From assembly GCA_013373635.1 (NCBI GenBank), contig JABXHN010000019.1, positions 62,001 to 126,000 of the forward strand: 64,000 nt of DNA, read 5' to 3'. Position numbers and translations under genes: made by a program. Below, one piece after another: positions 8,978-24,244 of this stretch. Under the pieces are notes generated by a model. It had not been told where the DNA came from. It searched no databases and saw only the letters and a program-made list of their open reading frames with translations. Position 1 is the stretch's first letter; each line of letters begins with the position of its first letter. This DNA comes from Flavobacteriaceae bacterium. Its GTDB lineage: Bacteria; Bacteroidota; Bacteroidia; Flavobacteriales; Flavobacteriaceae.

Positions 8978-9646
8978 CTAAGGTTTAAATCGCATATAGG
9001 TGATTGGTTTTCCTTGTTCAAGATACTGTTTTTCGTAGAAAGTTTGAATAGTTAACACTTCAGAGGGTGCTCCTTCGTTTTTATAGACATTGTGATTGGC
9101 GTACTGCACCTCTAGTCCAAGGCCGTGACAGAGTCCTAAGGTATAGCCGTGCATGAATTCGGAATCGGTCTTTAAATGCACTACTCCAGTGTCATTTAGG
9201 ATATTTCGATAACGGTCCAAAAACACCTGATTGGTCATACGGTGTTTGGTTCTCTTGTATTTGATTTGAGGGTCTGGAAAGGTGATCCAAATTTCAGATA
9301 CTTCTTTTGCATCAAAGAGATGATCGACGAGTTCTATTTGAGTTCGAACAAAACACACATTGCTAAGTCCTTCATCAATAGCAGTCTTGGCACCTCTCCA
9401 AAAGCGTGCCCCCTTGATATCAATTCCAATATAATTGACATTGGGATTTAAACGAGCGAGTCCTATGGTGTATTCTCCTTTTCCACATCCTAATTCTAGA
9501 ACGATGGGGTTGTCATTGCCAAATTTAGCTTTCCAATTTCCTTTGAGATCAAGACCATTGGTCACTACTTCTTCCCTAGTAGGCTGAATGACATTGGAAA
9601 AAGTTTCGTTTTCTTTAAATCGCTTTAGCTTATTCTTGCTCCCCAT
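8978..9646 (-). CDS. trmB: tRNA (guanine-N7-)-methyltransferase TrmB
   Basis: 222 residues. It has the SAM-binding motif VLELGCGKGEYTIGLA (residues 51-66), IGIDIKGARFWRGA, and the signature ITFPDPQIKYKRTKHRMTN containing the catalytic Asp region, plus LKTDSEFMHGY. TrmB makes m7G46 in the tRNA variable loop from S-adenosylmethionine. The start overlaps the end of the histidine-kinase gene by 17 bases, which places it in the two-component operon. Confidence 0.95.
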   Translation of the reverse strand: MGSKNKLKRFKENETFSNVIQPTREEVVTNGLDLKGNWKAKFGNDNPIVLELGCGKGEYTIGLARLNPNVNYIGIDIKGARFWRGAKTAIDEGLSNVCFVRTQIELVDHLFDAKEVSEIWITFPDPQIKYKRTKHRMTNQVFLDRYRNILNDTGVVHLKTDSEFMHGYTLGLCHGLGLEVQYANHNVYKNEGAPSEVLTIQTFYEKQYLEQGKPITYMRFKP

Positions 9647-10700
9647 TTGGATGTAGATCTTTAGATTTTTGCAAAGTAAAGGAAAATTCAGAACCTATTT
9701 CCTTTGTACTCTCAACAAATATCTTTTGATCGTGAGCTTCGATGATGTGTTTTACAATAGATAAGCCCAATCCTGAACCACCTTGCTTGCGATTTCCACT
9801 TTTATCGACCCTGTAAAATCGCTCAAAAAGTCTCGGTAAATCTTCTTTTGGTATTCCCTCACCATTATCGGTAACTCTTAATAAGATTTTTTTCTTACTA
9901 ATGCTTTGAATACTGATCTCTACAGTTCCATCTTCCTTGCCGTATTTAATAGCATTGTCCACCAAATTAGTAACGACTTGTCTAATTTTTTCTTGATCTC
10001 CATACACATTGACACCAGCAGAATAGTTCGTGTCAAAGGTCAAGGTTATTTTCTTTTTGGCAGCTCTCATTTCCATCATTTCAAAGACAGCTTCCACTAC
10101 CTGAACGATATCAAAATTGATAGGTTCCAATTGCAATTCACCCATTTCAAGTTTGGTAATCAAATCGAGATCTTTGATAATATAAGTAAGACGGTCAGCA
10201 GCTTTTGAAGCTCTTTCAAGGTATTTCACACGAAGTTTTTCATTATCAGCTGCACCTTCAAGTAAGGTATCTATATAGCCCTGAATGGTAAAAAGTGGTG
10301 TTTTTAATTCATGGGATACATTCCCAATAAACTCCCTTCTAAAATCATCTCTTCCCTTGAGACTTTCCAATTCAATCTTCTTGTTGATGGCATAAGTCTC
10401 AATTTCTTCTGTTAAGGATTTTACATTTGTAGTGATAATATCTCTTTTGACAGGGCTCGATTCTAAAAGTTTTAGCGTATCTCTTAAGTGCTTTATACTC
10501 CTGTAGATGACTCGTTCAATTCTAAATTGAATGACTCCAAATGAAACAACAAATGAAATCGAAAAATAAAGCAGTGAAAATCCAATGTCAAAATTTCCTT
10601 GGCCAACCAAAAAAAGGGTCGTTATAACAGTTAAAAGACCAGAAATTGCCAATGAGGTTAGCAGGGCAAATTTGTAGGATTTTTTTTCTTTAGGTTCCAT
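9630..10700 (-). CDS. Sensor histidine kinase, PhoR-like
   Basis: 356 residues. It has two membrane helices (residues 10-33 and 37-60) with almost no periplasmic loop, no PAS domain, a HisKA domain with phospho-acceptor His130 in NVSHELKTPL, then an HATPase domain (TNLVDNAIKYGKE, VTDNGEGIP, GGSGLGLSIVKHIIEAH). The short loop argues against direct ligand sensing outside the cell and fits PhoR-type kinases, which sense through a transporter. The ATG overlaps the regulator stop codon (TAATG). The signal is inferred as phosphate only from the nearby phosphate genes. Confidence 0.9.
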   Translation of the reverse strand: MEPKEKKSYKFALLTSLAISGLLTVITTLFLVGQGNFDIGFSLLYFSISFVVSFGVIQFRIERVIYRSIKHLRDTLKLLESSPVKRDIITTNVKSLTEEIETYAINKKIELESLKGRDDFRREFIGNVSHELKTPLFTIQGYIDTLLEGAADNEKLRVKYLERASKAADRLTYIIKDLDLITKLEMGELQLEPINFDIVQVVEAVFEMMEMRAAKKKITLTFDTNYSAGVNVYGDQEKIRQVVTNLVDNAIKYGKEDGTVEISIQSISKKKILLRVTDNGEGIPKEDLPRLFERFYRVDKSGNRKQGGSGLGLSIVKHIIEAHDQKIFVESTKEIGSEFSFTLQKSKDLHPNGEQE

Positions 10701-11383
10701 TATTTCTCAACAAACTTATACCCTACTCCTTTGACGGTTTTAAAACGCTTGTCACCTATTTTTTCACGAAGTTTTCGAATGTGAACGTCTATGGTACGAC
10801 CTCCAACAACAACATCATTTCCCCAAACGTGATCAAGTATCGCTTCTCTAGTAAATACTTTATTGGGTTTTGAAGCCAATAAGGCTAATAATTCAAATTC
10901 TTTTCTAGGAAGATTAATCACCTTTCCTTTTAATTTGATTTCATATTGTTCTCTATCGATTTCTAAATTGGATAATTGAATGCTTTCGATAGAAGATTCT
11001 TCTTTCTGTTCCGAAGTATTAAATCTTCGTAAAAGTGATTTCACCTTACTGACAAGAATCTTAGGTTTGATGGGCTTAGTTATATAATCATCCGCACCCG
11101 CCTCAAATCCAGCCATTTGCGAATAATCTTCTCCTCTTGCGGTAAAAAAAGCTATAATAGTTTGATCCAGTTGAGGTAGTGCTCTTAACTTTTCACAAGT
11201 TTCGATACCATCCATGCCTGGCATCATTACATCCAAAATGATTAATTGAGGTTGCTGTTCTTTCGCCAATGCTATTCCTTCAATTCCATTACTAGCTGTA
11301 TAGACCTCATATCCAGCAGATTCTAAATTGTAAGAAACAATTTCAAGAATATCAGATTCATCATCTACAATTAATACCTTCAT
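10700..11383 (-). CDS. OmpR/PhoB-family response regulator
   Basis: 227 residues from the ATG at 11383. A TTG start further upstream is rejected because it lies inside the -7 element at 11414-11421. Receiver domain: VDDES, phospho-acceptor Asp51 (ILDVMMPGMDG), conserved Lys in ITKPIKP. Winged-helix DNA-binding domain: VINLPRKEFELLALLAS, VGGRTIDVHIRKLREKIG. OmpR/PhoB proteins bind tandem direct repeats about 11 bp apart, the exact spacing of the TAAC arrays seen at 12064-12110, 12549-12618, 15485-15521 and 24255-24280. It is first gene of a likely five-gene operon. Confidence 0.93.
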   Translation of the reverse strand: MKVLIVDDESDILEIVSYNLESAGYEVYTASNGIEGIALAKEQQPQLIILDVMMPGMDGIETCEKLRALPQLDQTIIAFFTARGEDYSQMAGFEAGADDYITKPIKPKILVSKVKSLLRRFNTSEQKEESSIESIQLSNLEIDREQYEIKLKGKVINLPRKEFELLALLASKPNKVFTREAILDHVWGNDVVVGGRTIDVHIRKLREKIGDKRFKTVKGVGYKFVEK

Positions 11384-11413
11384 TAATTTAAAATTATTAT
11401 TAAGATAATGCTT

Positions 11414-11421
11414 CAAATTTA
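11414..11421 (-). promoter_or_regulatory. -7 element of the two-component operon
   Basis: On the minus strand TAAATTTG, a full match to TAnnTTTG. Transcription would start near 11407, about 24 bases before the regulator ATG at 11383. Confidence 0.6.
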
Positions 11422-11459
11422 GTGATTAATAAGCATATAGGACTTTTTATACAGAATCA

Positions 11460-11485
11460 TAAACTTAAATTAACTTTAAGATAAC
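11460..11485 (+). promoter_or_regulatory. Short TAAC-type repeat array upstream of the two-component operon
   Basis: TAAA (11460), TAAC (11471) and TAAC (11482) lie 11 bp apart on the plus strand, opposite to the operon's direction, about 40-65 bp upstream of its -7 element. This is possible autoregulation, but with only two exact copies in AT-rich DNA it is weak. Confidence 0.3.
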
Positions 11486-11488
11486 ATC

Positions 11489-11521
11489 AAAAAAAAAGCT
11501 CCTTCAGACTTGAGGAGCTTT
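11489..11521 (-). terminator. Intrinsic terminator after the MORN-repeat gene
   Basis: On the minus strand AAAGCTCCT pairs with AGGAGCTTT (9 bp, one-turn loop) and is followed by a run of T. It lies 24 bases past the end of the gene at 11545. Confidence 0.8.
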
Positions 11522-11544
11522 GAAACACTTAGTTAATTCTAATT

Positions 11545-11892
11545 TCATCTATTGACAATCGCTTCTTTTTGATCCCAAAGAATGTGATTTACAATTTTAT
11601 TATCAATATAATCTACCTCATTGAGTTTTCCATTTTCCCAAATAAACCATTTTCCTGTTTTCTTACCATTAGCATAATATCCTTGAGCAATTTTTTCTCC
11701 ATCTTCATTATACATCATCCACAATCCACTGAGTTTTCCATCCTTGAAAAATCCTTGTTGAGAAACTTGACCATTTGAATGATAATAAACTGCTTCAACT
11801 CGATCACCATCCTTGGTATATTTGGGGTTAGTTTCTTGTGCAAACACTCCAGTGCTTAACATACAAATCACAAGGCTTAATACTATTTTCAT
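11545..11892 (-). CDS. Secreted MORN-repeat (YwqK-type) protein
   Basis: 115 residues with a signal peptide ending at GVFAQ (about residue 19). The rest consists of about four MORN-2-like beta-hairpin repeats (YHSNGQVSQQGFFKDGKLSGLW, MYNEDGEKIAQGYYANGKKTGKW, IWENGKLNEVDYIDNK). Databases often name these 'YwqK antitoxin' proteins, but no toxin gene is beside it, so I do not assign that role. It is divergent from the receptor-domain gene at 12156 across a 263-base region holding two TAAC arrays. Confidence 0.8.
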   Translation of the reverse strand: MKIVLSLVICMLSTGVFAQETNPKYTKDGDRVEAVYYHSNGQVSQQGFFKDGKLSGLWMMYNEDGEKIAQGYYANGKKTGKWFIWENGKLNEVDYIDNKIVNHILWDQKEAIVNR

Positions 11893-11950
11893 CTTATTTC
11901 ATTTTTAATATAGTATAAAATTACAAATTAATCATTTGGAAACATTGGCT

Positions 11951-11976
11951 TAACAATTTGGTAACCTTAATTTAAC
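11951..11976 (+). promoter_or_regulatory. TAAC array 1 (three copies, 11-bp spacing)
   Basis: TAAC occurs at 11951, 11962 and 11973, exactly 11 bp apart, each with a preceding T or G. No -7 element lies at the spacing seen in the other arrays. It may be an upstream activator site of the gene at 12156, or act on the divergent gene at 11892, whose possible -7 element (minus strand TTAATTTG) is at 11924-11931. Confidence 0.45.
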
Positions 11977-12063
11977 ATAGGCGTTTTTAATGTCTGTTTA
12001 TCAGTTATATATGCAACTATATTTTTATTTAAAATTAACTAGTATTCGCATTTTTTATGAGCT

Positions 12064-12110
12064 TAACACAATCATAACATCAAATAACGAATTGATAATA
12101 CTGACTTAAC
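12064..12110 (+). promoter_or_regulatory. TAAC array 2, operator of the gene at 12156
   Basis: TAAC at 12064, 12075 and 12085, TAAT at 12096 and TAAC at 12107: five copies with steps of 11, 10, 11 and 11 bp. The last copy sits where a -33 element would be, 25 bases before the start of the -7 element TATTTTTG. This is the architecture of an activator-dependent PhoB/PhoP promoter; the name Pho box is inference. Confidence 0.6.
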
Positions 12111-12131
12111 AGTACCATTGTACTTGTAGGA

Positions 12132-12139
12132 TATTTTTG
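12132..12139 (+). promoter_or_regulatory. -7 element of the gene at 12156
   Basis: TATTTTTG matches TAnnTTTG fully. The start of transcription would be near 12145, leaving a leader of about 11 bases. Its TTTG is 29 bases after the last TAAC of array 2. Confidence 0.65.
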
Positions 12140-12155
12140 CAATAAAATTAAATCG

Positions 12156-12491
12156 ATGAAAAAAATAAGTTTACTAATTGCCTTATGTGTGTCTGCTATA
12201 AGCTTTGCTCAAATGGCAAATGATAAAGGATCCATCGCTGGAACAATTTTAGACCTTGAAGCTGACAACAGTCCTCTTGCATTTGCAACAGTAGAGGTAG
12301 TAGATACCAATAAAACTGCAACTACTGATTTTGATGGCAACTTTACTGTCATTGGTTTAGAGCCTGGAACTTACAAATTAAAAGTTCGCTTTTTAGGATA
12401 CCAAGATTTATACACCAAAGACCTCATTGTGGAAGCTGATCACACTAACAATATTAGCTATTCATTGAAAGCAATTCACATAGAAGAATAA
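12156..12491 (+). CDS. Free-standing carboxypeptidase-regulatory-like domain protein
   Basis: 111 residues: signal peptide (to about residue 19, SFAQ) and one CarboxypepD_reg-like beta-sandwich (residues 25-105; GSIAGTILDLEADNSPLAFA, TDFDGNFTVIGLEPGTY, LKVRFLGYQD). It closely parallels the first 115 residues of the TonB receptor encoded next, including the same length, signal peptide style and ending (HIEE versus ALEEV), but has no plug or barrel. A terminator and a second TAAC promoter separate the two genes. It may be a soluble periplasmic partner or decoy of the receptor domain; the function is unknown. Confidence 0.75.
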   Translation: MKKISLLIALCVSAISFAQMANDKGSIAGTILDLEADNSPLAFATVEVVDTNKTATTDFDGNFTVIGLEPGTYKLKVRFLGYQDLYTKDLIVEADHTNNISYSLKAIHIEE

Positions 12492-12510
12492 CTTTTATCA
12501 AGACTCTATA

Positions 12511-12537
12511 AAACCTCCTTTTCAAGGGGGTTTTTTT
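12511..12537 (+). terminator. Intrinsic terminator after the receptor-domain gene
   Basis: AACCTCCTT, TTC loop, AAGGGGGTT (one G-T pair) and a run of T. It ends the 12156 transcript before the receptor gene's own promoter. Confidence 0.8.
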
Positions 12538-12548
12538 ATGGCTTAATT

Positions 12549-12618
12549 TAAGATTCTCTTAACCTAAGCATAACTTTAATATAGAAGTTTAGTAAAGTTT
12601 TGCTAACCTTTTTATAAG
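12549..12618 (+). promoter_or_regulatory. TAAC array 3, operator of the TonB receptor gene
   Basis: Seven tetramers in strict 11-bp phase: TAAG 12549, TAAC 12560, TAAC 12571, TAGA 12582, TAAA 12593, TAAC 12604, TAAG 12615. The -7 region GTTATTTG follows at 12629-12636, so its TTTG is 29 bases after the TAAC at 12604, as in array 2. The sequence directly shows the repeats; binding by the neighbouring PhoB-like regulator is inference. Confidence 0.6.
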
Positions 12619-12628
12619 GCTTGCACAC

Positions 12629-12636
12629 GTTATTTG
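12629..12636 (+). promoter_or_regulatory. -7 element of the TonB receptor gene
   Basis: GTTATTTG keeps the TTTG half of TAnnTTTG but not the TA half, as expected for a promoter that depends on an activator. It is 21 bases before the receptor ATG. Confidence 0.4.
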
Positions 12637-12657
12637 CACAAAATTTAACGATTCGAA

Positions 12658-15483
12658 ATGAAAAAAATTTACCTAGCATTATTTGTACTTGCAACTGCGA
12701 TTTCATTCGCTCAAGAAACAGGAACAATTCAAGGAAAACTTACCGACAAAGAGCTCAATGACGAGCCTTTAGTGTTTGGGAACATCCTCATCAAAGGAAC
12801 TTCACTGGGAACCACGTCAGATTTTGATGGCCTTTATGAGTTCAACAATCTAGAACCTGGAACTTATACCTTAGAGATAAGCTTCTTAGGATATGAAACC
12901 ATCACGGCCGAAAACATAGTAGTAAAAGCTGGAGAGATCACTAAAGCAGACTTTTCATTAGGAGCCTCTCAAGGAATGGCTCTAGAAGAAGTAGTTGTCG
13001 TAACAACGACTTCAAAAGAATCAGAAGCGGCACTTTTAGTAGAACAAAAAAATGCTGTGGCAATGTCTACAGCCATTGGATCGCAAGAACTTGCAAAAAA
13101 AGGGGTTGGCGATGCAGCCACTGCGGTTACAAAGACTACTGGGGTATCAAAACAAGAAGGTAGCGGAACCATCTTTGTTAGAGGATTGGGTGATCGCTAC
13201 AATATGACCACACTGAATAAACTTCCTTTACCTTCAAACAATCCTTCTAGAAAGAATATCGAACTGGGAATGTTCACCACTGATATAGTAGAATATATTG
13301 GAATCGACAAAACATTTATCGCTTCCAATTACGGAGATTTTTCTGGTGCGAATATCAATATTAAAACTAAAGATTTTAAAGGAACATCATTTATTGATAT
13401 TTCTTTAGGATCAGGAGTTAACACGGAAGTGTCAAAAGCAGACACCTTTTACCTAAACGACGGTCCTAACAAATCAGGATTTTATTATCAATCCTACCCT
13501 TTATTTCCGTTAAACAATTACAACTTCACAACGAGTTGGGACCGAACTATTGAGAATAACCCTATCAATAGAAACGCTTCTTTAAAAGGAGGTTTATCAT
13601 TTTATTTAGGAGAAAACACCAAGGTGAATATCTTTGGAATGGCTTCTCATGACAATAATTTCAGTTATCAAAACGGAATCGTTAGAGGAGGTATTACTGT
13701 CTCTGGTTTAGCTAGAAGAGATTTCACCTACGACTCCTTCAAGTACAACACCAACTCTACAGCAATGGGAACTATCGGTGTTCGTCACTTAAATCACTTC
13801 TTACAGTTTAACAGCTTGTATACCAATACTTCTTCACAATCTCAAAATGAGTACTATGGGGTCGTAGACGCATTTGATTACGCACCTGAAGGAGGAGCTG
13901 TTGTACAACGTTCTGTATTTGATCGTACTGTACTACTAGTAAATCAATTGTTAGGGGAGCATCAACTGAGCGACACTTTCGCTGTAAATTGGGGTACTTC
14001 TTTTAACATCACTCAAAATGTGATTCCTGACAGAAGACAAACAATGATTTCTCCTGATAATTGGGATAATCCAGAAGGTCCAAAGTCTTTTCAACAAACA
14101 TTGAACAGCTCAGACAACCACCGCTTTTTTCAAAACTTAAGTGAAGAAGAATTTGCTGCAAACTTTGAAGCAGCGTACAAATTCAAGAAAAATGAGGATG
14201 ATTTATACGATGGTATTCTCACTTTTGGGTACAACGGACGTATGAAATCGGTAGACTTTAAAGCGACTCAATTCAACTTTAGAATTACAAGACGTCTTTA
14301 TGGATCAGTTGTTGACCAGCCTATTGTTGAGGATGTTCACAATCTCGACAGCTATTTCAACTTAGAAAACAGAAACGCTGGATTGTTCTCTATCGAAACC
14401 TTTAGAGGGAATTTAAACACCCCCTCTGCTCTTGTTCCACAAACGTATGACGGAACTCAAAATATCCATGCTGCCTATACCAATTTGACCTACAAATTAT
14501 CAGACAAAACAACTGCAGTAGTAGGATTAAGAGCTGAAAAAATAGATCAGACGATTAACTGGAGTACTTCTTTAGATCCAACTGGGGGCACTGCTTCTTT
14601 TAATGCTACTGAATTCTTACCAACAGCAAGTATCAAAGTTGCTTTGAAAGAAGATCAAAACTTAAAATTAGCAGCGAGTAAGACCTATACACTTCCTCAA
14701 TTTAAAGAACGCGCATTATTCCAATACGAAGATGTGACTCAGGTATCATTTGGAAACCCATCCCTATACGCATCGACAGATTACAACTTTGATGCAAAGT
14801 GGGAACTCTTTCCAAAGCGTTCAGAGCTTATCTCTGTAGGAGGTTTTGCAAAATACATTCAAAACCCCATCAACGATGTAACGGTTAACTCTGCTACTAA
14901 TGATTTAAGTTATGTCAACACAGGAGATAGTGCTACGGTATTTGGTGTCGAATTCGAAACACGAAAAGATCTGATCAATCACGAAACTGAAACAGAATCT
15001 GGATTCTTAAAAACCTTATTGACATTTGGTTTTAATGCTTCGTATTTGATATCCAATCAAGAACTCGATGCTCAAAAAGTAATCGATGAAACCACTGCTG
15101 CTGGAATCTTACCCCTTAGTGTGGATTTCACCAATAGTTCTGATAAACTTACTGGAGCATCCGATTTACTACTCAACGCTGATATCAGTTTTTCTAAAGA
15201 ATTTGAAAAAGATCGCAATTTAAGTGCTACTGCTGCATACAACTATTACTCAGATCGAATCTATGCCTTAGGAACAGAAGGAAAAGGAAATTTAGTCGAC
15301 AAAGGATTAGGAAGCTTGGATCTCATTGTTAAATCGGATCTCACAAAAAACCTAAGTCTTGGATTGAGCGCTAAAAACATCTTAAATCCAGAAGTTCTGA
15401 GAATTCAAGATATTCAAAATATTGAAGTCCTTTCTTATAAGCGAGGAGCTACTGTTAAGCTTTCTTTATCCTATAACTTTTAG
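12658..15483 (+). CDS. TonB-dependent outer-membrane receptor
   Basis: 941 residues: signal peptide (to about residue 19), carboxypeptidase-regulatory-like domain (about 24-108), plug domain (about 140-250, with GTIFVRGLGDRYNMTTLN and SNYGDFSGANINIKTKDF), then a beta-barrel ending in the aromatic VKLSLSYNF. No SusD partner follows; instead there is a large lipoprotein (15589), which probably takes the partner role. The substrate is not evident. The TAAC array before it and the phosphate transport genes nearby suggest a phosphorus-containing molecule. A terminator at 15519-15549 ends or attenuates the transcript. Confidence 0.9.
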   Translation: MKKIYLALFVLATAISFAQETGTIQGKLTDKELNDEPLVFGNILIKGTSLGTTSDFDGLYEFNNLEPGTYTLEISFLGYETITAENIVVKAGEITKADFSLGASQGMALEEVVVVTTTSKESEAALLVEQKNAVAMSTAIGSQELAKKGVGDAATAVTKTTGVSKQEGSGTIFVRGLGDRYNMTTLNKLPLPSNNPSRKNIELGMFTTDIVEYIGIDKTFIASNYGDFSGANINIKTKDFKGTSFIDISLGSGVNTEVSKADTFYLNDGPNKSGFYYQSYPLFPLNNYNFTTSWDRTIENNPINRNASLKGGLSFYLGENTKVNIFGMASHDNNFSYQNGIVRGGITVSGLARRDFTYDSFKYNTNSTAMGTIGVRHLNHFLQFNSLYTNTSSQSQNEYYGVVDAFDYAPEGGAVVQRSVFDRTVLLVNQLLGEHQLSDTFAVNWGTSFNITQNVIPDRRQTMISPDNWDNPEGPKSFQQTLNSSDNHRFFQNLSEEEFAANFEAAYKFKKNEDDLYDGILTFGYNGRMKSVDFKATQFNFRITRRLYGSVVDQPIVEDVHNLDSYFNLENRNAGLFSIETFRGNLNTPSALVPQTYDGTQNIHAAYTNLTYKLSDKTTAVVGLRAEKIDQTINWSTSLDPTGGTASFNATEFLPTASIKVALKEDQNLKLAASKTYTLPQFKERALFQYEDVTQVSFGNPSLYASTDYNFDAKWELFPKRSELISVGGFAKYIQNPINDVTVNSATNDLSYVNTGDSATVFGVEFETRKDLINHETETESGFLKTLLTFGFNASYLISNQELDAQKVIDETTAAGILPLSVDFTNSSDKLTGASDLLLNADISFSKEFEKDRNLSATAAYNYYSDRIYALGTEGKGNLVDKGLGSLDLIVKSDLTKNLSLGLSAKNILNPEVLRIQDIQNIEVLSYKRGATVKLSLSYNF

Positions 15484-15484
15484 T

Positions 15485-15521
15485 TAATACAAGCATTACA
15501 TAAAGGTAAATTATCACTAAC
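15485..15521 (+). promoter_or_regulatory. Degenerate TAAC array 4 before the lipoprotein gene
   Basis: TAAT 15485, TTAC 15496, TAAA 15507 and TAAC 15518 are spaced by exactly 11 bp. The TTTG of a -7-like TTTTTTTG (15543-15550) lies 29 bases after the last TAAC, identical to arrays 2 and 3. The copies are weaker and the -7 element overlaps the T-tract of a terminator, so this could be coincidence. Confidence 0.4.
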
Positions 15522-15549
15522 GCTTAGTTTAAATACTAGGCGTTTTTTT
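15519..15549 (+). terminator. Intrinsic terminator after the TonB receptor gene
   Basis: AACGCTTAGT pairs with ACTAGGCGTT (one G-T pair), followed by seven T. It probably lowers expression of the lipoprotein gene relative to the receptor unless the promoter at 15543-15550 is used. Confidence 0.75.
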
Positions 15550-15588
15550 GTGTCAGAATTTAAAACATAAATCAATTAAAATTAAATA

Positions 15589-17799
15589 ATGAAAAAATCA
15601 ATTTTAAAATTTGCTTTACTATCATTAGTACTTACAGCGAGTTCTTGTATTAAAGATGAAACTCCTGTAGTAGATATTCATTCCAATGGAATTCAAGATG
15701 GAGATGAGACTGGAATCGATTGTGGAGGTTCTTCTGGAAATGAATGTCCTGTTAACAATGAATTATCAGGTGATATTTCAGATGCAGTAGTTTTAGATGC
15801 ATCTATTGAATACGATTTAACTGGAGCTTTAGTCGTACGTGAAGGAGGATCTTTAACCATCCCTGCTGGAACAGTAATTAAAGCATCAGGGGGAACTTCT
15901 TCTTATATTGCTGTTGCGCAAGGAGGACTCATTTATGTGAACGGTACTTCTTCAAATCCAGTAGTAATGACTTCAGCTTCAGAAACACCAGCTGCAGGTG
16001 ACTGGGGAGGATTAGTGCTATGTGGAAAAGCTCCTACAAACGTAGGTGCGACAGCTACTTCTGAAGTTGCTGATTTAACTTATGGAGGTACTGATGCGAA
16101 CGATTCTTCTGGAGTATTAAAGTATTTAAGAGTAGAGTATACTGGTGCGACTTTCAACTCTTCAAAAGAATTTAACGGTGTATCATTCTTTGGAGTGGGT
16201 GCTGGAACAACAGTTGACTACGTTCAATCTTATGAAGGTGGAGATGATGGTTTAGAGTTCTTCGGTGGAACAGTAAATCCAACACATTTAGTTTCTGTTA
16301 ACTCAGGAGATGATTCCATCGACTTTGCAGATGGATGGTCTGGAAATGGTTCCTACTGGTACATCTTAGGAGGTGCTAAGGCTGGAATTGAAGGCTCAAA
16401 CAACGGTGATAACGGTGCTGCGACTCCAATGACAACTGCTACCCTATCAAACATCTCAGTTGTTGGTCCTGTAACTGAAGGAGCTCTTTATTTCAAAGAA
16501 GGTGGAGGAAAATTCACTATCGACAATTTCTACGCTAAAGGTGTTAACTTAGGTGTCAAAGTAAAAAGTACAGACACCAATGCTTCTGATCGTATTGAAG
16601 CTGGTGATCTTGTAATGACTAACGTACAATTTGCTGATTCAGCAGAAGGATTTGTAGCTCATGACTATACAGGAGCAACTCAATCCTTCATTTCTGAAGG
16701 AATCACTACAGGAGCTGGATCTGGAGCTGCTGCTCCAAGTTGGACTCAAGGTTGGACTATTGGACTTGACAACACTACAGCTGCAACTACTGAAAATATT
16801 CAAGGAGAAATCACTACAGATATCAGCTTAGATGCTTCAATCGAGTACTACTTATCTGGATCTCTTGTAATTAAAGACGGTGGTTCATTAACCATCCCTG
16901 CAGGTACTATCATCAAAGCTACTGGTGGAACCTCTTCTTATATCGCAGTGGCTCAGGGTGGACAAATTTTCGTCAATGGAACTGCAGATGCTCCAGTTAT
17001 TATGACTTCTAGTGCAAGTACTCCTGCTGCAGGTGACTGGGGAGGATTAGTGCTTTGCGGAAAAGCTCCAACTAACGTAGGTGCTACTGCTACTTCTGAA
17101 GTTGCTGATTTGACTTACGGAGGAACAGTTACAGATGATAACTCTGGTGTTTTAAAATACTTAAGAGTAGAATACACAGGGGCTACTTTTAACTCTTCAA
17201 AAGAATTCAACGGAGTATCATTCTTTGGAGTTGGTTCTAGAACTACAGTTGATTATGTTCAATCTTATGAAGGTGGAGATGACGGAATTGAGTTCTTTGG
17301 AGGTACCGTAAATGCAACTCACTTAGTATCGATCAACTCAGGTGATGATTCAATCGATTTTGCTGACGGATGGAACGGTACTGGATCTCATTGGTATATC
17401 AAAGGAGGTGCTAAAGCAGGTATTGAAGGATCTAATAACGGTGACAACGGTGCTGCAACACCTATGACCACTACAACACTTTCAAACATTACTGTAGTAG
17501 GTCCTGTAACCGAAGGAGCTCTTTACTTCAAAGAAGGAGGAGGAAAATTCACTATCGACAATTTCTATACTACTGGAATTGACAAAGCGGTTAAGGTTAA
17601 AACTGCAGACACCAATTCCATTGCAAGAATCGATGGTGGTGATTTAACAATTACCAATATGCAATTCGACAATAAAGCTGAAGGATTTGTAATATCAGAT
17701 TACGCTGCTGTCTCTGATCATCTGACAGAAGGGACAACTACAGGTGCTGGAAATGGAGCCGCTATTCCTGATTGGGCAGCGTCTTGGATAAAGCAATAA
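15589..17799 (+). CDS. Lipoprotein with two 345-residue beta-helix-like repeats
   Basis: 736 residues with lipobox LTASSC (Cys20). A short linker (IQDGDETGIDCGGSSGNECP) is followed by two tandem copies of one domain (about residues 61-405 and 406-736). Each has the markers LDASIEY, GGSLTIPAGT, GDWGGLVLCGKAPTNVG, LKYLRVEYTGA, QSYEGGDDG, FFGGTVN and GDDSIDFADGW. The short, regularly spaced, Gly/Asp-rich beta turns suggest a right-handed parallel beta-helix, a fold used to bind or cleave polymers. I know no activity for it. Position directly after the receptor suggests a surface partner. No T9SS sorting domain is present. Confidence 0.8.
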   Translation: MKKSILKFALLSLVLTASSCIKDETPVVDIHSNGIQDGDETGIDCGGSSGNECPVNNELSGDISDAVVLDASIEYDLTGALVVREGGSLTIPAGTVIKASGGTSSYIAVAQGGLIYVNGTSSNPVVMTSASETPAAGDWGGLVLCGKAPTNVGATATSEVADLTYGGTDANDSSGVLKYLRVEYTGATFNSSKEFNGVSFFGVGAGTTVDYVQSYEGGDDGLEFFGGTVNPTHLVSVNSGDDSIDFADGWSGNGSYWYILGGAKAGIEGSNNGDNGAATPMTTATLSNISVVGPVTEGALYFKEGGGKFTIDNFYAKGVNLGVKVKSTDTNASDRIEAGDLVMTNVQFADSAEGFVAHDYTGATQSFISEGITTGAGSGAAAPSWTQGWTIGLDNTTAATTENIQGEITTDISLDASIEYYLSGSLVIKDGGSLTIPAGTIIKATGGTSSYIAVAQGGQIFVNGTADAPVIMTSSASTPAAGDWGGLVLCGKAPTNVGATATSEVADLTYGGTVTDDNSGVLKYLRVEYTGATFNSSKEFNGVSFFGVGSRTTVDYVQSYEGGDDGIEFFGGTVNATHLVSINSGDDSIDFADGWNGTGSHWYIKGGAKAGIEGSNNGDNGAATPMTTTTLSNITVVGPVTEGALYFKEGGGKFTIDNFYTTGIDKAVKVKTADTNSIARIDGGDLTITNMQFDNKAEGFVISDYAAVSDHLTEGTTTGAGNGAAIPDWAASWIKQ
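15769..17796 (+). repeat. Tandem intragenic duplication, 1035-bp period
   Basis: Unit 1 is 15769-16803 and unit 2 is 16804-17796. For example GCTGCAGGTG at 15991 recurs at 17026, and the Asp codon of DASIEY at 15796 recurs at 16831, both 1035 bp apart. There are no gaps in the inner part of the unit. The copies keep stretches of near-identical DNA, which points to recent duplication or gene conversion. Confidence 0.9.
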
Positions 17800-17827
17800 G
17801 CTACTTTTAGTGATTTTCAATAAATAG

Positions 17828-17851
17828 AGCCCCTTTATGGGGCTTTTTTTT
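17828..17851 (+). terminator. Intrinsic terminator after the duplicated lipoprotein gene
   Basis: AGCCCC, loop TTTAT, GGGGCT and an eight-T run, 29 bases after the stop codon. Confidence 0.9.
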
Positions 17852-17886
17852 ATGTTTTATTTGAAGTTTTATTGGCTTTTATTTTT

Positions 17887-17894
17887 TATCTTTA
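17887..17894 (+). promoter_or_regulatory. -7 element of the sorting-domain gene
   Basis: TATCTTTA, one mismatch from TAnnTTTG, with TTTG at 17860-17863 as a possible -33 element. No TAAC array lies in the phase seen upstream of the three preceding genes. Confidence 0.45.
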
Positions 17895-17938
17895 GCTAAC
17901 TAAACTTTTTAACAAACAACTCACTCACTCGTCTCACG

Positions 17939-18241
17939 ATGAAAAAATGGTATTTCATATTGTTTTTCATTGCAGCTATAGGTATCTCTGTAGCTCAAGA
18001 GACTAATGAAGTACCAGGACTCAACATCTACCCAAACCCCGTTACTCAAGGAGTTGTTTATATAGCCACCGACAGCAATCAAACTAAAGAAATTGTCATC
18101 TATGATGTGTTTGGAGCTATGAAGCTTAGAACCACTCTCGATCAAGAAGCACTTTATCTACAAAATTTAGAAGCTGGAATCTACGTGATTCGAGTAACTG
18201 AAAACAATCGTACTTCTACCAGAAAATTGATTGTGAAGTAG
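17939..18241 (+). CDS. Bare T9SS type A sorting-domain protein
   Basis: 100 residues: a signal peptide (to about residue 19, SVAQ), five or so linker residues, then a complete Por_Secre_tail/T9SS type A domain (NIYPNPVTQG, IVIYDVFGAMKL, LEAGIYVIRVTENNRTSTRKLIVK). In this family the domain normally follows a large cargo and directs it through the type IX secretion system. Here no cargo remains. It may be a decayed gene, or a small protein that occupies or tests the secretion machinery; the intact frame and own promoter favour a functional gene. Confidence 0.85.
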   Translation: MKKWYFILFFIAAIGISVAQETNEVPGLNIYPNPVTQGVVYIATDSNQTKEIVIYDVFGAMKLRTTLDQEALYLQNLEAGIYVIRVTENNRTSTRKLIVK

Positions 18242-18255
18242 CAGTTCTAATGATG

Positions 18256-18263
18256 TATCTTTG
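18256..18263 (+). promoter_or_regulatory. -7 element of the LuxE-like gene
   Basis: TATCTTTG is a full match to TAnnTTTG, only eight bases before the ATG at 18272. The transcript would have almost no leader. Confidence 0.65.
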
Positions 18264-18271
18264 TATTAAAG

Positions 18272-19249
18272 ATGCGCGATCCCTTTAACATACAAACCGA
18301 AAAAGAATTTAAGGCTTATGCCTTAGAGTTATTTGCGTATCAACATCAAAACAACAAGGTCTATCGTCAGTTTTGTGATTTATTAAAAGTGGATCCCTCA
18401 AAAGTTCAACGTCTTGAGCACATCCCCTATTTACCCATAGAGTTCTTTAAACTCAAAGAGGTGTATTGTGGTACTCCTGGAGATTTTTACTTTAGTTCGA
18501 GTGGAACCACTTCCAGTGTCAACTCAAAACACTATATCGAAGACTTAAATCACTACACCAAGAGTTTTAGAACTGCTTTTAATCACTTTTATGGACCTAT
18601 TAATGATTATTGCGTCCTAGCACTCCTTCCTTCTTATTTAGAACGTGAAGGCTCCTCATTGATCTATATGGCAGAAGATCTCATTAAAGAGAGCAAGCAT
18701 CCTCAATCAGGTTTCTATCTCAATGAATTTGATTCCTTAGCTAAAACTTTAAAAGAATTAGAATCCAAAAACACCAAAACCTTACTTATTGGAGTCTCCT
18801 TTGCGCTATTGGATTTTGTTGAAGAATATCAAATAGAGCTACATAACACCCTCGTTATGGAAACTGGAGGTATGAAAGGTAGACGTAAAGAACTCATTAG
18901 AGCAGAGCTTCACGAATTACTTAAAGAAGGATTTGGAGTCAACGCCATTCACTCTGAATACGGAATGACCGAACTTCTTTCACAGGCTTATTCCAAAGGA
19001 AACGGACTGTTTAAAACACCTCCCTGGATGAAGATCTCTATTCGTGACACTAGAGATCCCTTATCGCTCATTGGAACGCATAAAACAGGTGGAATTAACA
19101 TCATTGACTTGGCGAACAAAGAGAGTTGTGCTTTTATCGCAACCGAAGATTTAGGAAAAGTATATCCCGATGGCTCTTTTGAAGTTTTAGGTCGATTTGA
19201 CAAGTCTGCCATTAGAGGATGCAACCTAATGGTAATGGATCCTGCATAA
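18272..19249 (+). CDS. LuxE/PaaK-like acyl-activating protein
   Basis: 325 residues. It resembles acyl-protein synthetase LuxE and the phenylacetate-CoA ligase core: the Ser/Thr/Gly-rich phosphate loop YFSSSGTTSSVNSKHY (about residues 73-88), ETGGMKGRRKELIR and HSEYGMTELLSQAYS (about 232-246). These proteins activate a carboxylate with ATP. Flavobacteria carry such a gene without luciferase genes, so a light-related role is unlikely; the substrate is unknown. It is followed by tyrS with a separate promoter. Confidence 0.8.
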   Translation: MRDPFNIQTEKEFKAYALELFAYQHQNNKVYRQFCDLLKVDPSKVQRLEHIPYLPIEFFKLKEVYCGTPGDFYFSSSGTTSSVNSKHYIEDLNHYTKSFRTAFNHFYGPINDYCVLALLPSYLEREGSSLIYMAEDLIKESKHPQSGFYLNEFDSLAKTLKELESKNTKTLLIGVSFALLDFVEEYQIELHNTLVMETGGMKGRRKELIRAELHELLKEGFGVNAIHSEYGMTELLSQAYSKGNGLFKTPPWMKISIRDTRDPLSLIGTHKTGGINIIDLANKESCAFIATEDLGKVYPDGSFEVLGRFDKSAIRGCNLMVMDPA

Positions 19250-19297
19250 GCTTTGAACTTCTTTAGAAGTGAGCTACAATTCTTATAAAATCATCCT

Positions 19298-19305
19298 TAT
19301 ATTTG
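19298..19305 (+). promoter_or_regulatory. -7 element of tyrS
   Basis: TATATTTG is a full match to TAnnTTTG. It decides the tyrS start: the in-frame TTG at 19303 lies inside this element and cannot be translated from this transcript, leaving the GTG at 19324. Confidence 0.7.
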
Positions 19306-19323
19306 CCACAAATACGATATCTA

Positions 19324-20616
19324 GTGAAAAACTTTGTAGAAGAACTCAAATGGAGAGGCATGATACACGATGTGATGCCTGAAACAGAAGAACACTTACT
19401 CAGCGGAATGCAATCAGCCTATGTTGGAATTGATCCTACGGCTGACTCCTTACATATTGGACACCTTGTCGGAGTGATGATGCTCAAGCATTTTCAACTA
19501 TCGGGACACAAGCCTTTTGCACTTATTGGTGGAGCAACTGGAATGATTGGAGATCCTTCTGGAAAATCACAAGAACGCAATCTTCTCGATGAAGCTACCC
19601 TACGTCACAATGAAAATGCACTTAAGGAACAATTATCGCGTTTCTTAGATTTTGATGCTCATCAAGATAATGCTGCAGTATTGGTTAACAACTACGACTG
19701 GATGAAGGATTTTAGTTTCCTAGCATTTATTCGCGATGTTGGAAAACACATCACAGTTAATTATATGATGGCTAAGGATTCTGTAAAGAAAAGACTCTCT
19801 TCTGAAGCAAAAGAAGGTATGTCTTTTACTGAGTTTACCTATCAACTCGTTCAGGGATACGATTTCTTACACCTTTTTAAAGAGCACAATTGCACCCTTC
19901 AAATGGGCGGTTCAGACCAGTGGGGAAACATCACCACCGGAACGGAACTTATCAGAAGAATTGGAGGCGGAAAAGGATATGCTTTAACTTGTCCACTGAT
20001 TACCAAAGCAGATGGAACGAAGTTTGGAAAAACTGAAGGAGGAAATATCTGGCTCGATGAAAACAGAACTTCTCCATATGCTTTTTACCAGTATTGGTTA
20101 AATACTTCTGATGAAGATGCTGAGAAATACATCAAAATCTTTACGCTTTTAGGAAAAGATGCGATTGAAGGATTGATTGAATCACACCGAGAAGCACCTC
20201 ATCAAAGAGCACTTCAAAGAAGATTGGCCGAAGAAGTTACCGTGATGGTTCACTCACAGGAAGCCCTAGACAATGCCGTGAAAGCCAGTGAGATTCTCTT
20301 TGGTAAATCAACCGCTGAAGATGTCAAAGGGCTTAATTCGAGAACCTTTTTAGAAATTTTTGAAGGTGTACCTCAGGCAGTTCTCTCAAAAGAGGAATTA
20401 GCAGAAGGTTTGGACATGATTGGAGCTCTTGCTGCTAAAACAAATTTCTTAAGCTCCAACGGAGAAGCCAGAAGAGAGCTCAAACAAAATTCCATAGCAC
20501 TCAATAAAGAAAAGGTTGGTGAAGAATACACCATAAGCGAACAAGATCTTATCGACGGAAGCTATGTACTCCTTCAAAGAGGTAAGAAAAAGTATTTCAT
20601 TATTCGATTCGAATAG
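19324..20616 (+). CDS. tyrS: Tyrosyl-tRNA synthetase
   Basis: 430 residues from a GTG start that gives [13 protein letters not shown]. Class I synthetase signatures: HIGH at residues 44-47, KFGKT (KMSKS equivalent) at 233-237, and tyrosine-pocket residues in GYDFLHLF and MGGSDQWGN. The C-terminal part (about 360-430) is an S4-like RNA-binding domain ([21 protein letters not shown]). It charges tRNA-Tyr with tyrosine. It is a single gene with its own promoter, ending at a bidirectional terminator. Confidence 0.97.
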
Positions 20617-20644
20617 TAAAACCTTTTATTTATTATTTAAGCAT

Positions 20645-20680
20645 AAAAAAAACCGAGTAAGTTATTTACTCGGTTTTTTA
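20645..20680. terminator. Bidirectional intrinsic terminator between tyrS and the PiT gene
   Basis: AACCGAGTAA and TTACTCGGTT form a 10-bp perfect stem, with A-tracts on one side and T-tracts on the other, so it can end transcription from both convergent genes. Confidence 0.92.
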
Positions 20681-20699
20681 TTTATGACGCTTCTACGAA

Positions 20700-22940
20700 T
20701 TAATTCTTAGCAGAAGTGTGATATTCTTCACTTACATTCATCACAGACTTCACCAAGTCTTTAGTCTCTAACAAGAGGTTGAAATAAAGCGTTGTGTTCT
20801 TTGGAGAAGACTCCTCAGTTCTCGTTCTAGAGATCTGCTCATCAATTTTTGTTGAAATTAAATCAAGAGCTTCTTTTCTAGATTGAAGAACCAATTCTAA
20901 TTGCTTGAAATCTTTATCACTAAAGATCTTTTCAATTTTAATAAGCAATTCAGATATGAATGCTTGAATCTCTTGAAGATCTTTAATTTGATTGTATCGG
21001 AGTGGTTTGTGGTTGTGATCCACATGCTTATAACTCTTTTTGGCAATGTATTCCAAAGATTGAGCAACATCAGTTAGATAAGCGAGAACAGTGATGTAGA
21101 AGTTACTACCTCTAACACTAGTCTCATGTAAATTCTTAATAAAATAGAATAAGTGATTACGAAGGTCCTCAACTTCTGCTTCAAGCTTCGCAATTTGCTT
21201 CTTACTCTTTTTGAGCTTTTGAGCATCTTGTTTTGCCAATCCTGAAATTACACTTTCATAAATCTTTGATGTTCTTTTCATTACATCAGCGATATTGTCT
21301 GAAGATTCACTGATAATTCCTTGAACTGTTTTACTTTCAGACTTCTTTAATCCCGCTGGCAATAATTTTTCAGCAGCTGCTTTTTTATATGAAAGGTAGT
21401 TTCTTACTAGAAGACCTGCAGCAACTAATAAAAGAACCGCAACAGCAGCACCCTTTCCTAAGTAGATTAAATACGTAATTACACCAGCAAAGATAAAGGC
21501 AGAAATCGCCGTAAAGAACCATCCTCCAATGACGTTTACTACACCAGCTACGCGGTATACTGCCGATTCTCTTCCCCAAGCCTTATCAGCAAGTGAGGTA
21601 CCCATAGCAACCATGAAAGTCACATAAGTAGTCGAGAGTGGTAATTTCATCGAAGTTGCAATAGATATCAAAATACCAGCAACTGTTAAATTGATCGAAG
21701 CACGAATTAAGTCAAACGCTGGTAAATCTTTAGCTTTATCTGCTGAAATATGATTGATAGGTTGTTCGAAACTATTGCTTATTTTTTCTTGAACAGCAGT
21801 AGGAAGGGCCGCCCCAAGAAGATTTGCTAATTTTGAACTTCCTTTTACTAATGCCTTCGATAAGGCATTTGGCTCAAATTTTTCATTTCCTTCACCTTGT
21901 CTTGAAAGACCAATTTCAGTTTCAGTAACATTTTTGGCCTTTTTAGATAACCAAAGAGTAGCGACCATGATACCTCCAGCAATAACAAGTAGTAATGGTT
22001 CTGCAGGAACTTTCTTAGCTAAAACTTCCATTGAAAATTCAGTAGCAGGAACTCCAGATGCTGACCAAGCTTCAAATGAGTGATATGCAGCCATCGGCAC
22101 CCCAATGAAATTTACTAAATCGTTTCCTGAGAAAGCTAACGCTAAACCAAAGGTCCCAATTGCAATTACTAGGGTGAGTACATTTTTCTTTAAAACTTTG
22201 TCAATAAATAATGAGATTAGAGACCAAAAAACAAACATCGCCCCAATCACAATCATTCCATTTTCAGCAAGGACTCCTTTAATGTCATTGTAATAAGGGG
22301 TTCCTTTTAAACCTTTGAAAAAGATGAAATATCCGATCCCTGTCAAACAGATTCCCGCAAAAACAAAACCGAAATTTTTGATTTTTTTCTCGTATTGAAA
22401 TGAAAACACCAAACGTGACAACCATTGGACTATAGCTCCAATAGTGAATGCTATCACAACTGACAAAAGAATACCTGTAATAATTTCAATTGCCTTTTGT
22501 GTATTGATATAGGTTCCTAAATCAGCAAGTGTTTGAGCTTCATCAGCACCAATTTTAATCAATGACATAGCAACAGCAGCTCCTAATAAGTTAAATACAA
22601 TCGAAACTGTAGTTGATGTAGGCATTCCTAGGGTATTGAAGAAGTCTAGTAGAAGAATGTCTCCAATCATTACCGCCATAAAGATGTACATGATTTCATC
22701 AAAGTAAAATTCGCCAGGCATAAAAATACCTTTACGAGCAACCTCCATCATACCGCTAGAAAAAACGGCTCCAATAAAAATACCCAAACTGGCAATGATC
22801 AAAATCTTTTTAAAAGAAATTGCTTTAGAACCAATTGCAGAGTTCAAAAAGTTCACTGCATCATTACTTACCCCTACAACTAAGTCAACAACGGCAAGCA
22901 CTGCTAGTGCGAAAATCATTAAGAAATAAATATTATCCAT
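20700..22940 (-). CDS. PiT-family inorganic phosphate transporter with PhoU-like tail
   Basis: 746 residues. The membrane part (about 1-515) has the two PHO4/PiT signature repeats, here VSNDAVNFLNSAIGSKA (residues 24-40) and GNDLVNFIGVPMA (about 271). This cation-coupled family imports phosphate. The extra 200 residues at the C-terminus (about 540-746, KIYESVISGLAKQDAQKL and following) are helical and coiled-coil rich, like DUF47/PhoU proteins that control phosphate transporters; in many bacteria the two are separate genes. It follows the porin gene by 64 bases without a terminator, so it probably shares its TAAC-array promoter. Confidence 0.9.
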   Translation of the reverse strand: MDNIYFLMIFALAVLAVVDLVVGVSNDAVNFLNSAIGSKAISFKKILIIASLGIFIGAVFSSGMMEVARKGIFMPGEFYFDEIMYIFMAVMIGDILLLDFFNTLGMPTSTTVSIVFNLLGAAVAMSLIKIGADEAQTLADLGTYINTQKAIEIITGILLSVVIAFTIGAIVQWLSRLVFSFQYEKKIKNFGFVFAGICLTGIGYFIFFKGLKGTPYYNDIKGVLAENGMIVIGAMFVFWSLISLFIDKVLKKNVLTLVIAIGTFGLALAFSGNDLVNFIGVPMAAYHSFEAWSASGVPATEFSMEVLAKKVPAEPLLLVIAGGIMVATLWLSKKAKNVTETEIGLSRQGEGNEKFEPNALSKALVKGSSKLANLLGAALPTAVQEKISNSFEQPINHISADKAKDLPAFDLIRASINLTVAGILISIATSMKLPLSTTYVTFMVAMGTSLADKAWGRESAVYRVAGVVNVIGGWFFTAISAFIFAGVITYLIYLGKGAAVAVLLLVAAGLLVRNYLSYKKAAAEKLLPAGLKKSESKTVQGIISESSDNIADVMKRTSKIYESVISGLAKQDAQKLKKSKKQIAKLEAEVEDLRNHLFYFIKNLHETSVRGSNFYITVLAYLTDVAQSLEYIAKKSYKHVDHNHKPLRYNQIKDLQEIQAFISELLIKIEKIFSDKDFKQLELVLQSRKEALDLISTKIDEQISRTRTEESSPKNTTLYFNLLLETKDLVKSVMNVSEEYHTSAKN

Positions 22941-22944
22941 AATT

Positions 22945-22952
22945 CAAAATTA
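22945..22952 (-). promoter_or_regulatory. Possible internal -7 element before the PiT gene
   Basis: On the minus strand TAATTTTG matches TAnnTTTG, but it ends only four bases before the ATG, which would give a leaderless transcript. No TAAC array is in phase with it, so readthrough from the porin promoter is more likely. Confidence 0.3.
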
Positions 22953-23004
22953 ATAGGTGCTAAAGTAATTAAATTGCACAATTGCTAGATTAACAAAATG
23001 TTAT

Positions 23005-24210
23005 TTAAAAATGTAATTCAAATCCTGATCTAAATTGAATATTGTCGTTTTCACCGCCAACAAACGTTTTAACTAAATCCGATTGAACCTTTAATTTATG
23101 GCCAACAATATACTTAGAAATTCCTATTGTATATTGTTTTTCGTCAGCTTTAGAAGTTACTTCAGCATAATCGACAGAAGTATAACGTCCTACAAGCTCA
23201 ACATTGTTTTTAAATAGGTATCCTATTTGAGCATTTACTGCAGATCCGTCCCATACAACAGTTCCTGTTGCAGAACCGTTAGGATTGACAGCAATTGGAT
23301 CATCGGAAACGCGTTTTGCATACTCAGCCATAACAGAAATACCGTTGTACTTAAACATGGCATCAACAAAAGTCGTATTGATATCTGTTTGGTAGAGTGA
23401 TCCATCAGAAAGTTGCATGTACGAGCCTAATCCCGAACGTGTTTTTACCGCATTGTTATTGTGATTGTAGGTATAAGTCAACATTAACTTTGGTGACTGT
23501 TCACGAGCTAAATCGGCATTGGAATAATCTCCTTTTTTGGTAAATTCACCAAATGGCAATACCTCAAAACGAGCCGTGTATTGTAACCCTCCCTCATTAC
23601 CACTTGTAACATTTCTACCTTCTCCTTGAGAAAGGGCAAATTTTTCACGAGTGATAAAGTTATCAGACCACTTTGATTTATGTCTCAATTGAATTCCTAA
23701 GTCTCGGTCTATGTTAAATCTGGAGTTTAATAAAGAGCGATCAATCAATTGTAAATTGGCAGATGACACCACGCGCTCCACGTTTCCAGGGAGCTTCGTT
23801 TGTCCTGCCCACAATTCCCAATTTTTAGCAAAAGTCCACATGATCACTGCATCGAGTATCTGATTGGGAGCATTTTTTGTGTAGGGATTGGAACCAGACA
23901 AGTCATTGTTCGATAGCCCTAATTCAATTTTGTACTTGAGGTTTTTAGAATATGCAAATCCATCAAATTTCAAACGTGCTCTTCTTACCAAGAATCCGTG
24001 TTCTGCTTTGTCGTATCCAGAACCATTGGCATCCCAAGAGGAGTATTGTCTAACTTGAAAACGTGGAGCAAATTTAACGCTGAATGAATTGTCTTTTGCA
24101 GTGAAATTTAACAATCCTTTTCCAAATGAAGTTTCATCAACTCCTTGTTGTGCATGTGCACTAAATACAAAAGCAACAAGTGCTATTGCAGCTAAAAAAT
24201 AATTTTTCAT
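23005..24210 (-). CDS. OprP/OprO-type porin
   Basis: 401 residues with a signal peptide (to about residue 20, SAHAQ). The mature protein is a beta-barrel with alternating strands (FSVKFAPRFQVRQYSSW, GFLVRRARLKFDGFAYSKNL, ELWAGQTKLPGNVERVVSS, RFNIDRDLGIQLRHK) and a final aromatic residue, FRSGFELHF. The layout is that of the Porin_O_P family, whose Pseudomonas members are phosphate- and polyphosphate-selective. Adjacency to the PiT transporter and the TAAC array supports phosphate passage. It is first gene of the porin-PiT pair. Confidence 0.88.
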   Translation of the reverse strand: MKNYFLAAIALVAFVFSAHAQQGVDETSFGKGLLNFTAKDNSFSVKFAPRFQVRQYSSWDANGSGYDKAEHGFLVRRARLKFDGFAYSKNLKYKIELGLSNNDLSGSNPYTKNAPNQILDAVIMWTFAKNWELWAGQTKLPGNVERVVSSANLQLIDRSLLNSRFNIDRDLGIQLRHKSKWSDNFITREKFALSQGEGRNVTSGNEGGLQYTARFEVLPFGEFTKKGDYSNADLAREQSPKLMLTYTYNHNNNAVKTRSGLGSYMQLSDGSLYQTDINTTFVDAMFKYNGISVMAEYAKRVSDDPIAVNPNGSATGTVVWDGSAVNAQIGYLFKNNVELVGRYTSVDYAEVTSKADEKQYTIGISKYIVGHKLKVQSDLVKTFVGGENDNIQFRSGFELHF

Positions 24211-24236
24211 AATTTTCGAATCTGTTTTTGTCGCTG

Positions 24237-24244
24237 CAAAAGTC
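24237..24244 (-). promoter_or_regulatory. -7 element of the porin gene
   Basis: On the minus strand GACTTTTG, seven of eight positions of TAnnTTTG. It lies 26 bases before the ATG. Its first base is 14 bases after the first base of the nearest TAAC, against 25 in arrays 2 and 3, that is, exactly one 11-bp unit closer. Confidence 0.5.

Follow-up and report, generated by a model that had tools for sequence, protein, structure and literature searches.

Within a 64-kb window (the whole stretch of DNA analysed, 64,000 nucleotides of contig JABXHN010000019.1 from a Flavobacteriaceae bacterium), we studied arrays of TAAC-type tetramers that stand beside a PhoB-like regulator gene and that are, judged from sequence, very probably the Pho box of the Bacteroidia, the predicted site of that regulator at the -33 position of promoters. 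The regulator, an OmpR-family response regulator and the presumed binder of the arrays (10700-11383, - strand; Response_reg and Trans_reg_C), is encoded next to a PhoR-like histidine kinase (9630-10700, -; HisKA and HATPase_c). On the + strand follow genes for a 111-amino-acid (aa) CarboxypepD_reg-domain protein (12156-12491), a TonB-dependent receptor of 941 aa (12658-15483) and a 736-aa lipoprotein (15589-17799), which is likened, by its place in the locus, to the FII lipoprotein gene of Flavobacterium johnsoniae. The - strand carries a phosphate-selective porin O/P gene (23005-24210; PF07396) and, downstream of it, a PHO4-family (PiT) phosphate transporter gene (20700-22940; PF01384). The regulator has both the receiver and the winged-helix domain of a PhoB, and its pairing with a PhoR-type kinase beside phosphate genes is also that of a PhoB. 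Its named PhoB homologues come from a Flavobacteriaceae bacterium, Salegentibacter, Christiangramia and Tenacibaculum, then from Bacteroidales and others; the group label Flavobacteriaceae-like and the class label Bacteroidia were inferred from them.

The first-pass annotation had described TAAC tetramers stepping by 11 bp at three successive promoters, with the last TAAC of each array 29 nt before the TTTG of the -7 element. All the tetramers and all three TTTG sites are where it placed them, and the 29-nt distance holds throughout (12107 to 12136, 12604 to 12633 and 15518 to 15547). The 11-bp stepping holds overall, apart from one 10-bp step (12075 to 12085) in array 1. This array (12063-12111, +; TAAC at 12064, 12075 and 12085, TAAT at 12096, TAAC at 12107) has units in register at 29, 40 and 51 bases before TTTG, its two outer units being 1 bp off owing to the short step. 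It precedes the -7 element of the 111-aa gene, TATTTTTG (12132-12139, +), the only complete match to TAnnTTTG among the three; array 2 has GTTATTTG. Array 2 (12548-12619, +; TAAG/TAAC/TAAC/TAGA/TAAA/TAAC/TAAG from 12549) occupies slots 18 to 84 bases before the TTTG of the receptor promoter (12633-12636, +), with exact TAAC at 29, 62 and 73. Array 3 (15485-15521, +) consists of the weak units TAAT/TTAC/TAAA/TAAC.

Better arrays had been overlooked. The best in the window precedes the porin gene (24255-24281, -; units at 24280, 24269 and 24258), with TAAC 40, 29 and 18 bases before the TTTG of the porin promoter (24237-24240, -). A three-unit array, TTAAC/GTAAC/TTAAC (11950-11977, +; 11951, 11962 and 11973), is out of phase with the TTTG at 12136, and a two-unit TAAC array upstream of phoB (11470-11487, +; 11471 and 11482) is directed away from that gene. 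Exact TAAC-N7-TAAC pairs number 7 in the window, where TAAC counts of 223 and 157 predict about 1.2, and all seven adjoin phoB, the receptor genes or the porin gene (11471, 11951, 11962, 12064 and 12560 on the + strand, 24280 and 24269 on the - strand). The arrays thus have the direct repeats at an 11-bp period that mark a Pho box.

A scan of the own genome for triplets of TTAAC at 11-bp steps, one mismatch being allowed, gave 3 places, 2 of them in the locus (11950-11976, +, and 24255-24281, -). Looser array patterns are not enriched there over reversed controls (24 places against 32, and 22 against 59 for a second pattern), so it is the comparison with other genomes that carries the case; the genome alone would not prove a regulon. 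A scan for sigma70-type promoters gave no excess (40 against 46 by chance).

Recurrence and phase in homologous promoters

We compared 60 of the 67 other phoB loci from a set of 80 genomes, together with 17 loci of the named PhoB homologues. We assigned the receptor and lipoprotein genes by tblastn, at median identities of 32% and 36%, at which they count as homologues, orthology not being proven. Counting all 5-mers at spacings of 5-40 in 51 upstream regions (three from the window; 9,804 bases), we found that TAACA at 11 bp was the top combination, with 17 pairs against 0.13 in 30 shuffles; the runners-up were TAACA at 33, 20 and 19. A first control set also gave TAACA at 11 bp (13 against 0.6), because regions beside phoB had remained in it. 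The near-duplicate locus L105 was excluded from the 5-mer, phase, control-set and other-gene counts and kept in the counts of orientation upstream of phoB.

The phase to the promoter recurs as well. Across 55 upstream regions, TAAC-to-TTTG distances cluster at 29 (30 pairs), 40 (19), 73 (17), 62 (16), 51 (13), 18 (8) and 71 (8), with 0.54 expected per bin, and a single one of the 11 possible phases holds 103 of 171 distances. The layout of array 2, with units at 29, 62 and 73, is found in several relatives (for example loci L107, L109, L115 and L025). Thus, in the comparison with relatives that had been proposed as a check, the arrays recur in promoters of homologous genes in a fixed phase to TTTG: (T)TAACA half-sites repeat every 11 bp on one strand, and their distance to the -7 TTTG is 11n+7 (18, 29, 40, 51, 62, 73). 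At least two units in fixed register to a downstream element are a further mark of a Pho box; the overlap with the -33 position would follow from the spacing.

Of 76 regions directly upstream of phoB, 45 have a TAAC pair at 11 bp directed away from the gene and 5 have one directed towards it. Between phoB and the gene divergent from it, relatives (for example L107, L109, L129, L122 and L131) carry a second TAAC array on the phoB side, off register with the promoter array by 19-bp gaps, and near it a recurring CAAAAGTAAA block, possibly the promoter of phoB. In control upstream regions of phoB loci, 5-mers such as CCCTC, TCGTT and CTCGT recur at 21-bp spacing.

Array 3 needs separate treatment. 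A terminator-like hairpin with a T-run (15519-15551, +) overlaps its last unit and its TTTG. The hairpin (15519-15544; 10-bp stem, fold z -5.5) lies 3' of the receptor stop codon, the TTTG falls in the T-run, and the structure is conserved in same-genus relatives with two compensating double changes; a scan of 9600-25000 gave 13 terminator candidates against 9.6 in shuffles. We regard it as a strong terminator candidate, and this overlap makes a promoter at array 3 doubtful; of the three successive promoters originally proposed, the third is therefore in question, even though its 29-nt register stands. The array itself is nevertheless a probable binding site, as predicted from its conservation. 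In two same-genus relatives, which are so near each other that they amount to about one independent comparison, none of 9 or 10 substitutions hit the 16 tetramer columns (P 0.004 and 0.002), and the substitution minimum falls at exactly the tetramer register. Lying between the receptor and lipoprotein genes, the hairpin could set the ratio of the two products.

The CarboxypepD_reg domain of the receptor N-terminus recurs in the 111-aa protein (12156-12491), which has an array of its own; gene and array are possibly a partial duplication of the receptor start and promoter.

Genes behind the phased pattern

We searched the 80 genomes for TAACA-N6-TAAC-N25-TTTGC and found 38 sites in 34 genomes, against 1 for the reversed form. 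With the same letters and TTTGC five bases nearer there were 3 sites in 3 genomes (8 for its reversed form). We opened 30 of the 38 sites, taking as the gene behind each the longest open reading frame (ORF) starting within 400 bases. Phosphate genes dominate the resulting list: 25 of 30, including the receptor/lipoprotein system, comprising PiT (16), receptor (6), lipoprotein (1), Na/Pi cotransporter (1) and porin O/P (1). Behind the remaining five sites lay a HAD hydrolase, a DUF4440 protein, a gene without Pfam family, a 67-aa ORF and, in one case, no ORF. With the spacer left free from 8 to 38, 30 of the 150 matches listed fell at 29, 12 at 40 and 7 at 18.

A class-wide search, in genomes almost all new and with the reversed pattern as control, gave 53 sites in 46 of 198 genomes against 13. 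Among the 30 sites opened, 11 precede PHO4, PhoU_div, porin O/P or PstS-type genes (the PstS-type gene also matches TIGR02136), 6 precede TonB receptors, and 13 precede something else or nothing identified. The array signal reaches other families of the class, and pstS. Behind an in-phase array of another class member (L300) is a gene with a lamin tail domain that scores just below cut-off; the low-phosphate nucleases of F. johnsoniae are also listed with this domain.

Phase could also be counted gene by gene. PHO4 genes are present in 37 of the 80 genomes. The expected phase holds 25 of 49 distances upstream of PiT genes (25 regions) and 17 of 38 upstream of porins (14 regions), the close pairs L215/L216 and L229/L238 being retained; for pstS class-wide it holds 21 of 39 (30 loci of 34 matches in 119 genomes). 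Control regions, after removal of every gene whose start is no more than 700 bases from that of phoB, gave 56 of 277 distances (644 regions), a mild rise. The sites thus stand chiefly in front of transporter and porin genes for phosphate, of some pstS genes and of the phoB-adjacent receptor/lipoprotein system. This location at phosphate-uptake genes is again that of a Pho box, PhoX being mostly an exception.

Ten other genes have at least two units in the expected phase: a Na/Pi cotransporter (the same gene as behind one of the opened sites), a PhoU_div protein, a PhoX, a possible porin (BBP2, below cut-off) and six without Pfam family. Separately, a 380-aa protein without Pfam family has upstream TAAC at 29, 51 and 62 from TTTG in L156, L157, L158 and L160, and is a candidate for a new phosphate-regulated protein.

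Known Pho boxes and competing explanations

As a kind, the Pho box is well known. The box of Bacillus subtilis PhoP has TTAACA-like repeats with spacers of about 5 bp and serves a Gram-positive sigmaA promoter; that of Escherichia coli works with a sigma70 promoter, whereas the arrays here go with TAnnTTTG. The E. coli core, CTGTCAT, differs from the TTAACA of the arrays. Of the papers cited below by PubMed Central number we draw on parts only, and statements about them apply to those parts. Boxes built of 11-nt units are on record for several bacteria, and the E. coli PhoB box resembles the arrays in having at least two 11-nt direct-repeat units, bound head-to-tail with sigma contact (PMC4415409). 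Cyanobacterial SphR boxes share the TTAAC core and also the 11-bp period, since their 8-bp repeats CTTAACCT, three or more in tandem, are joined by 3-bp linkers; they belong to another phylum and another regulator, and the parts consulted describe no fixed register to TAnnTTTG (PMC1906773).

Nearer relatives offer partial parallels. The PhoP of Riemerella anatipestifer, from the wider flavobacterial group, has a motif from DNA affinity purification sequencing with the core TTTAACA and a 35-nt target in the electrophoretic mobility shift assay (EMSA); it is linked to aerotolerance, is comparable by motif only, and in the parts consulted comes with no 11-bp array or promoter phase, while the system is said to rise in phosphate starvation (PMC9603813). 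The F. johnsoniae PUSIV (phoBR) locus, likened to ours by gene set, has phoR, phoB, a TonB receptor (with other barrel Pfam labels than ours), an FII lipoprotein and OprP, and its transcript fold changes in low phosphate are 8.02 for the receptor, 9.91 for the lipoprotein and 3.06 for PhoB (PMC8115612); we read these as log2 because the text gives its threshold in log2FC (log2 fold change). From this induction of the gene-set counterpart we infer, indirectly, a phosphate response of the arrays in the window; the words motif, promoter and Pho box are absent from the main text of that paper. The PhoB of Bacteroides fragilis was shown by EMSA to bind the pst promoter, and the phosphate permease BF3715 of that species is PhoB-dependent, being 52-fold down in a phoB mutant in low phosphate compared with the wild type in high phosphate and unchanged in the wild type; no box sequence was found in the parts consulted (PMC3547664). 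A marine lipid study, in the part available, speaks of putative Pho boxes in plcP clusters but gives no sequence for them, and our searches of the open-licence PubMed Central literature turned up no Bacteroidetes Pho-box consensus. The Bacteroidia member of this known kind, its spacing rule and its spread appear to be new.

Recurrence in homologous promoters, the phase to TTTG and the dominance of phosphate genes all support the earlier proposal of a Pho-type box. In low phosphate, the PhoR-like kinase would phosphorylate the PhoB-like regulator, which would then bind the half-sites head-to-tail, like E. coli PhoB. The placement at -33 follows the consensus spacing. In Flavobacterium psychrophilum the TAnnTTTG element spans -12 to -5 (PMC9723704), so that a TAAC 29 bases before TTTG would lie at about -37 to -34 from the start, at the -33 position. 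Because of this placement, the bound activator would stand in for the -33 element and contact RNA polymerase, and units further upstream would contribute cooperativity. Such a geometry would match the E. coli arrangement in kind.

Several observations weigh against a Pho box bound by this regulator. The pattern was derived from loci of the 80 genomes in which it was then searched, and several of the 38 sites were therefore already known. Neighbouring phases 6 and 5 are also raised (18 and 15 distances, 3.2 expected), 18 of the 55 locus regions have no TAAC at 18, 29 or 40, and with the spacer free, distances of 30, 32, 35 and 28 give 14, 11, 9 and 7 of the 150 matches listed, some of those at 32 and 35 being, by eye, one sequence repeated across several genomes. 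In a set of 735 other upstream regions, 10 have at least two units in the expected phase and 8 have them in phase 4; of the eight genes concerned, six are divergent from phoB and have their upstream region in common with it, and we therefore attribute phase 4 to the second array beside phoB. At least two exact in-phase units precede only 1 of 19 PhoX genes (start codons chosen mechanically); for pstS in relatives the figure is 2 of 11, with a score of 0 for one further gene, L262. Class-wide, at least two exact in-phase units precede pstS in only 7 of 30 loci, against 2 loci for the ten other phases together. The expression data of F. johnsoniae fit imperfectly: OprP is not induced (fold change -1.3), though the window's best array precedes a porin, and a PhoX-like gene is among the most induced (12.5), yet PhoX arrays are rare (PMC8115612). 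In Riemerella, pstS rises 8-fold in a kinase/regulator mutant (PMC5399024), a poor fit to a simple activator.

Some of the contrary evidence also favours a different binder, another OmpR-family regulator, for example a global one like the Riemerella PhoP with hundreds of sites. That protein has 583 peaks, its TTTAACA-core motif is read by its authors as ArcA-like, and its 50 direct targets include no phosphate transporter by name (PMC9603813). The window regulator, moreover, has PhoB models as its best NCBIfam matches at scores below the curated cut-offs (215.7 bits against 270, and 214.8 against 296.2), hence the name PhoB-like; the best matches of the kinase, PnpS/PhoR models, are likewise below cut-off. 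Against this stand the location of the arrays beside phoB and phosphate genes and the co-occurrence of pattern and regulator. A regulator match at E<=1e-60 is present in 68 of the 80 genomes (own included), one per genome, and the pattern with units at -40 and -29 occurs in 34 of these 68 and in 0 of the 12 others (Fisher P 0.0009), a co-occurrence confounded by the often small or incomplete state of the regulator-less genomes. One of the latter, G034, has matches to a wider pattern, including one at 18, and retains a PiT gene with one in-phase unit upstream. On balance we consider a different regulator unlikely. Much less probable still is that phased A/T-rich words merely bend DNA or act UP-like with no dedicated regulator: the repeats do keep the helical period directly upstream of the core promoter, but the word is specific, TAACA ranking first among all 5-mers, and the sites lie mostly at phosphate genes. 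Chance in A+T-rich DNA, for which the unenriched mismatched patterns of the own genome might speak, is the least credible of all, being contradicted by the 38 against 3 sites for the same letters at shifted spacing and by recurrence in homologous promoters with conserved tetramers.

A possible Pho code for the class

The Pho box proposed here may be part of one code for the whole class, in which multi-unit PhoB arrays (about six half-sites at most, some of them degenerate) at distances of 11n+7 from TTTG would replace the -33 element, and in which the PhoP/ArcA-like motif of Riemerella would be the same box; this wider proposal could equally well prove right or wrong. If true, the Riemerella PhoP motif would be open to re-reading, and a spacing rule would be available for activated TAnnTTTG promoters. 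The phosphate-induced receptor/lipoprotein systems of Flavobacterium would gain their cis-element, and phosphate regulons of the Bacteroidia, a major class in gut, soil and sea, would become readable from promoter sequence.

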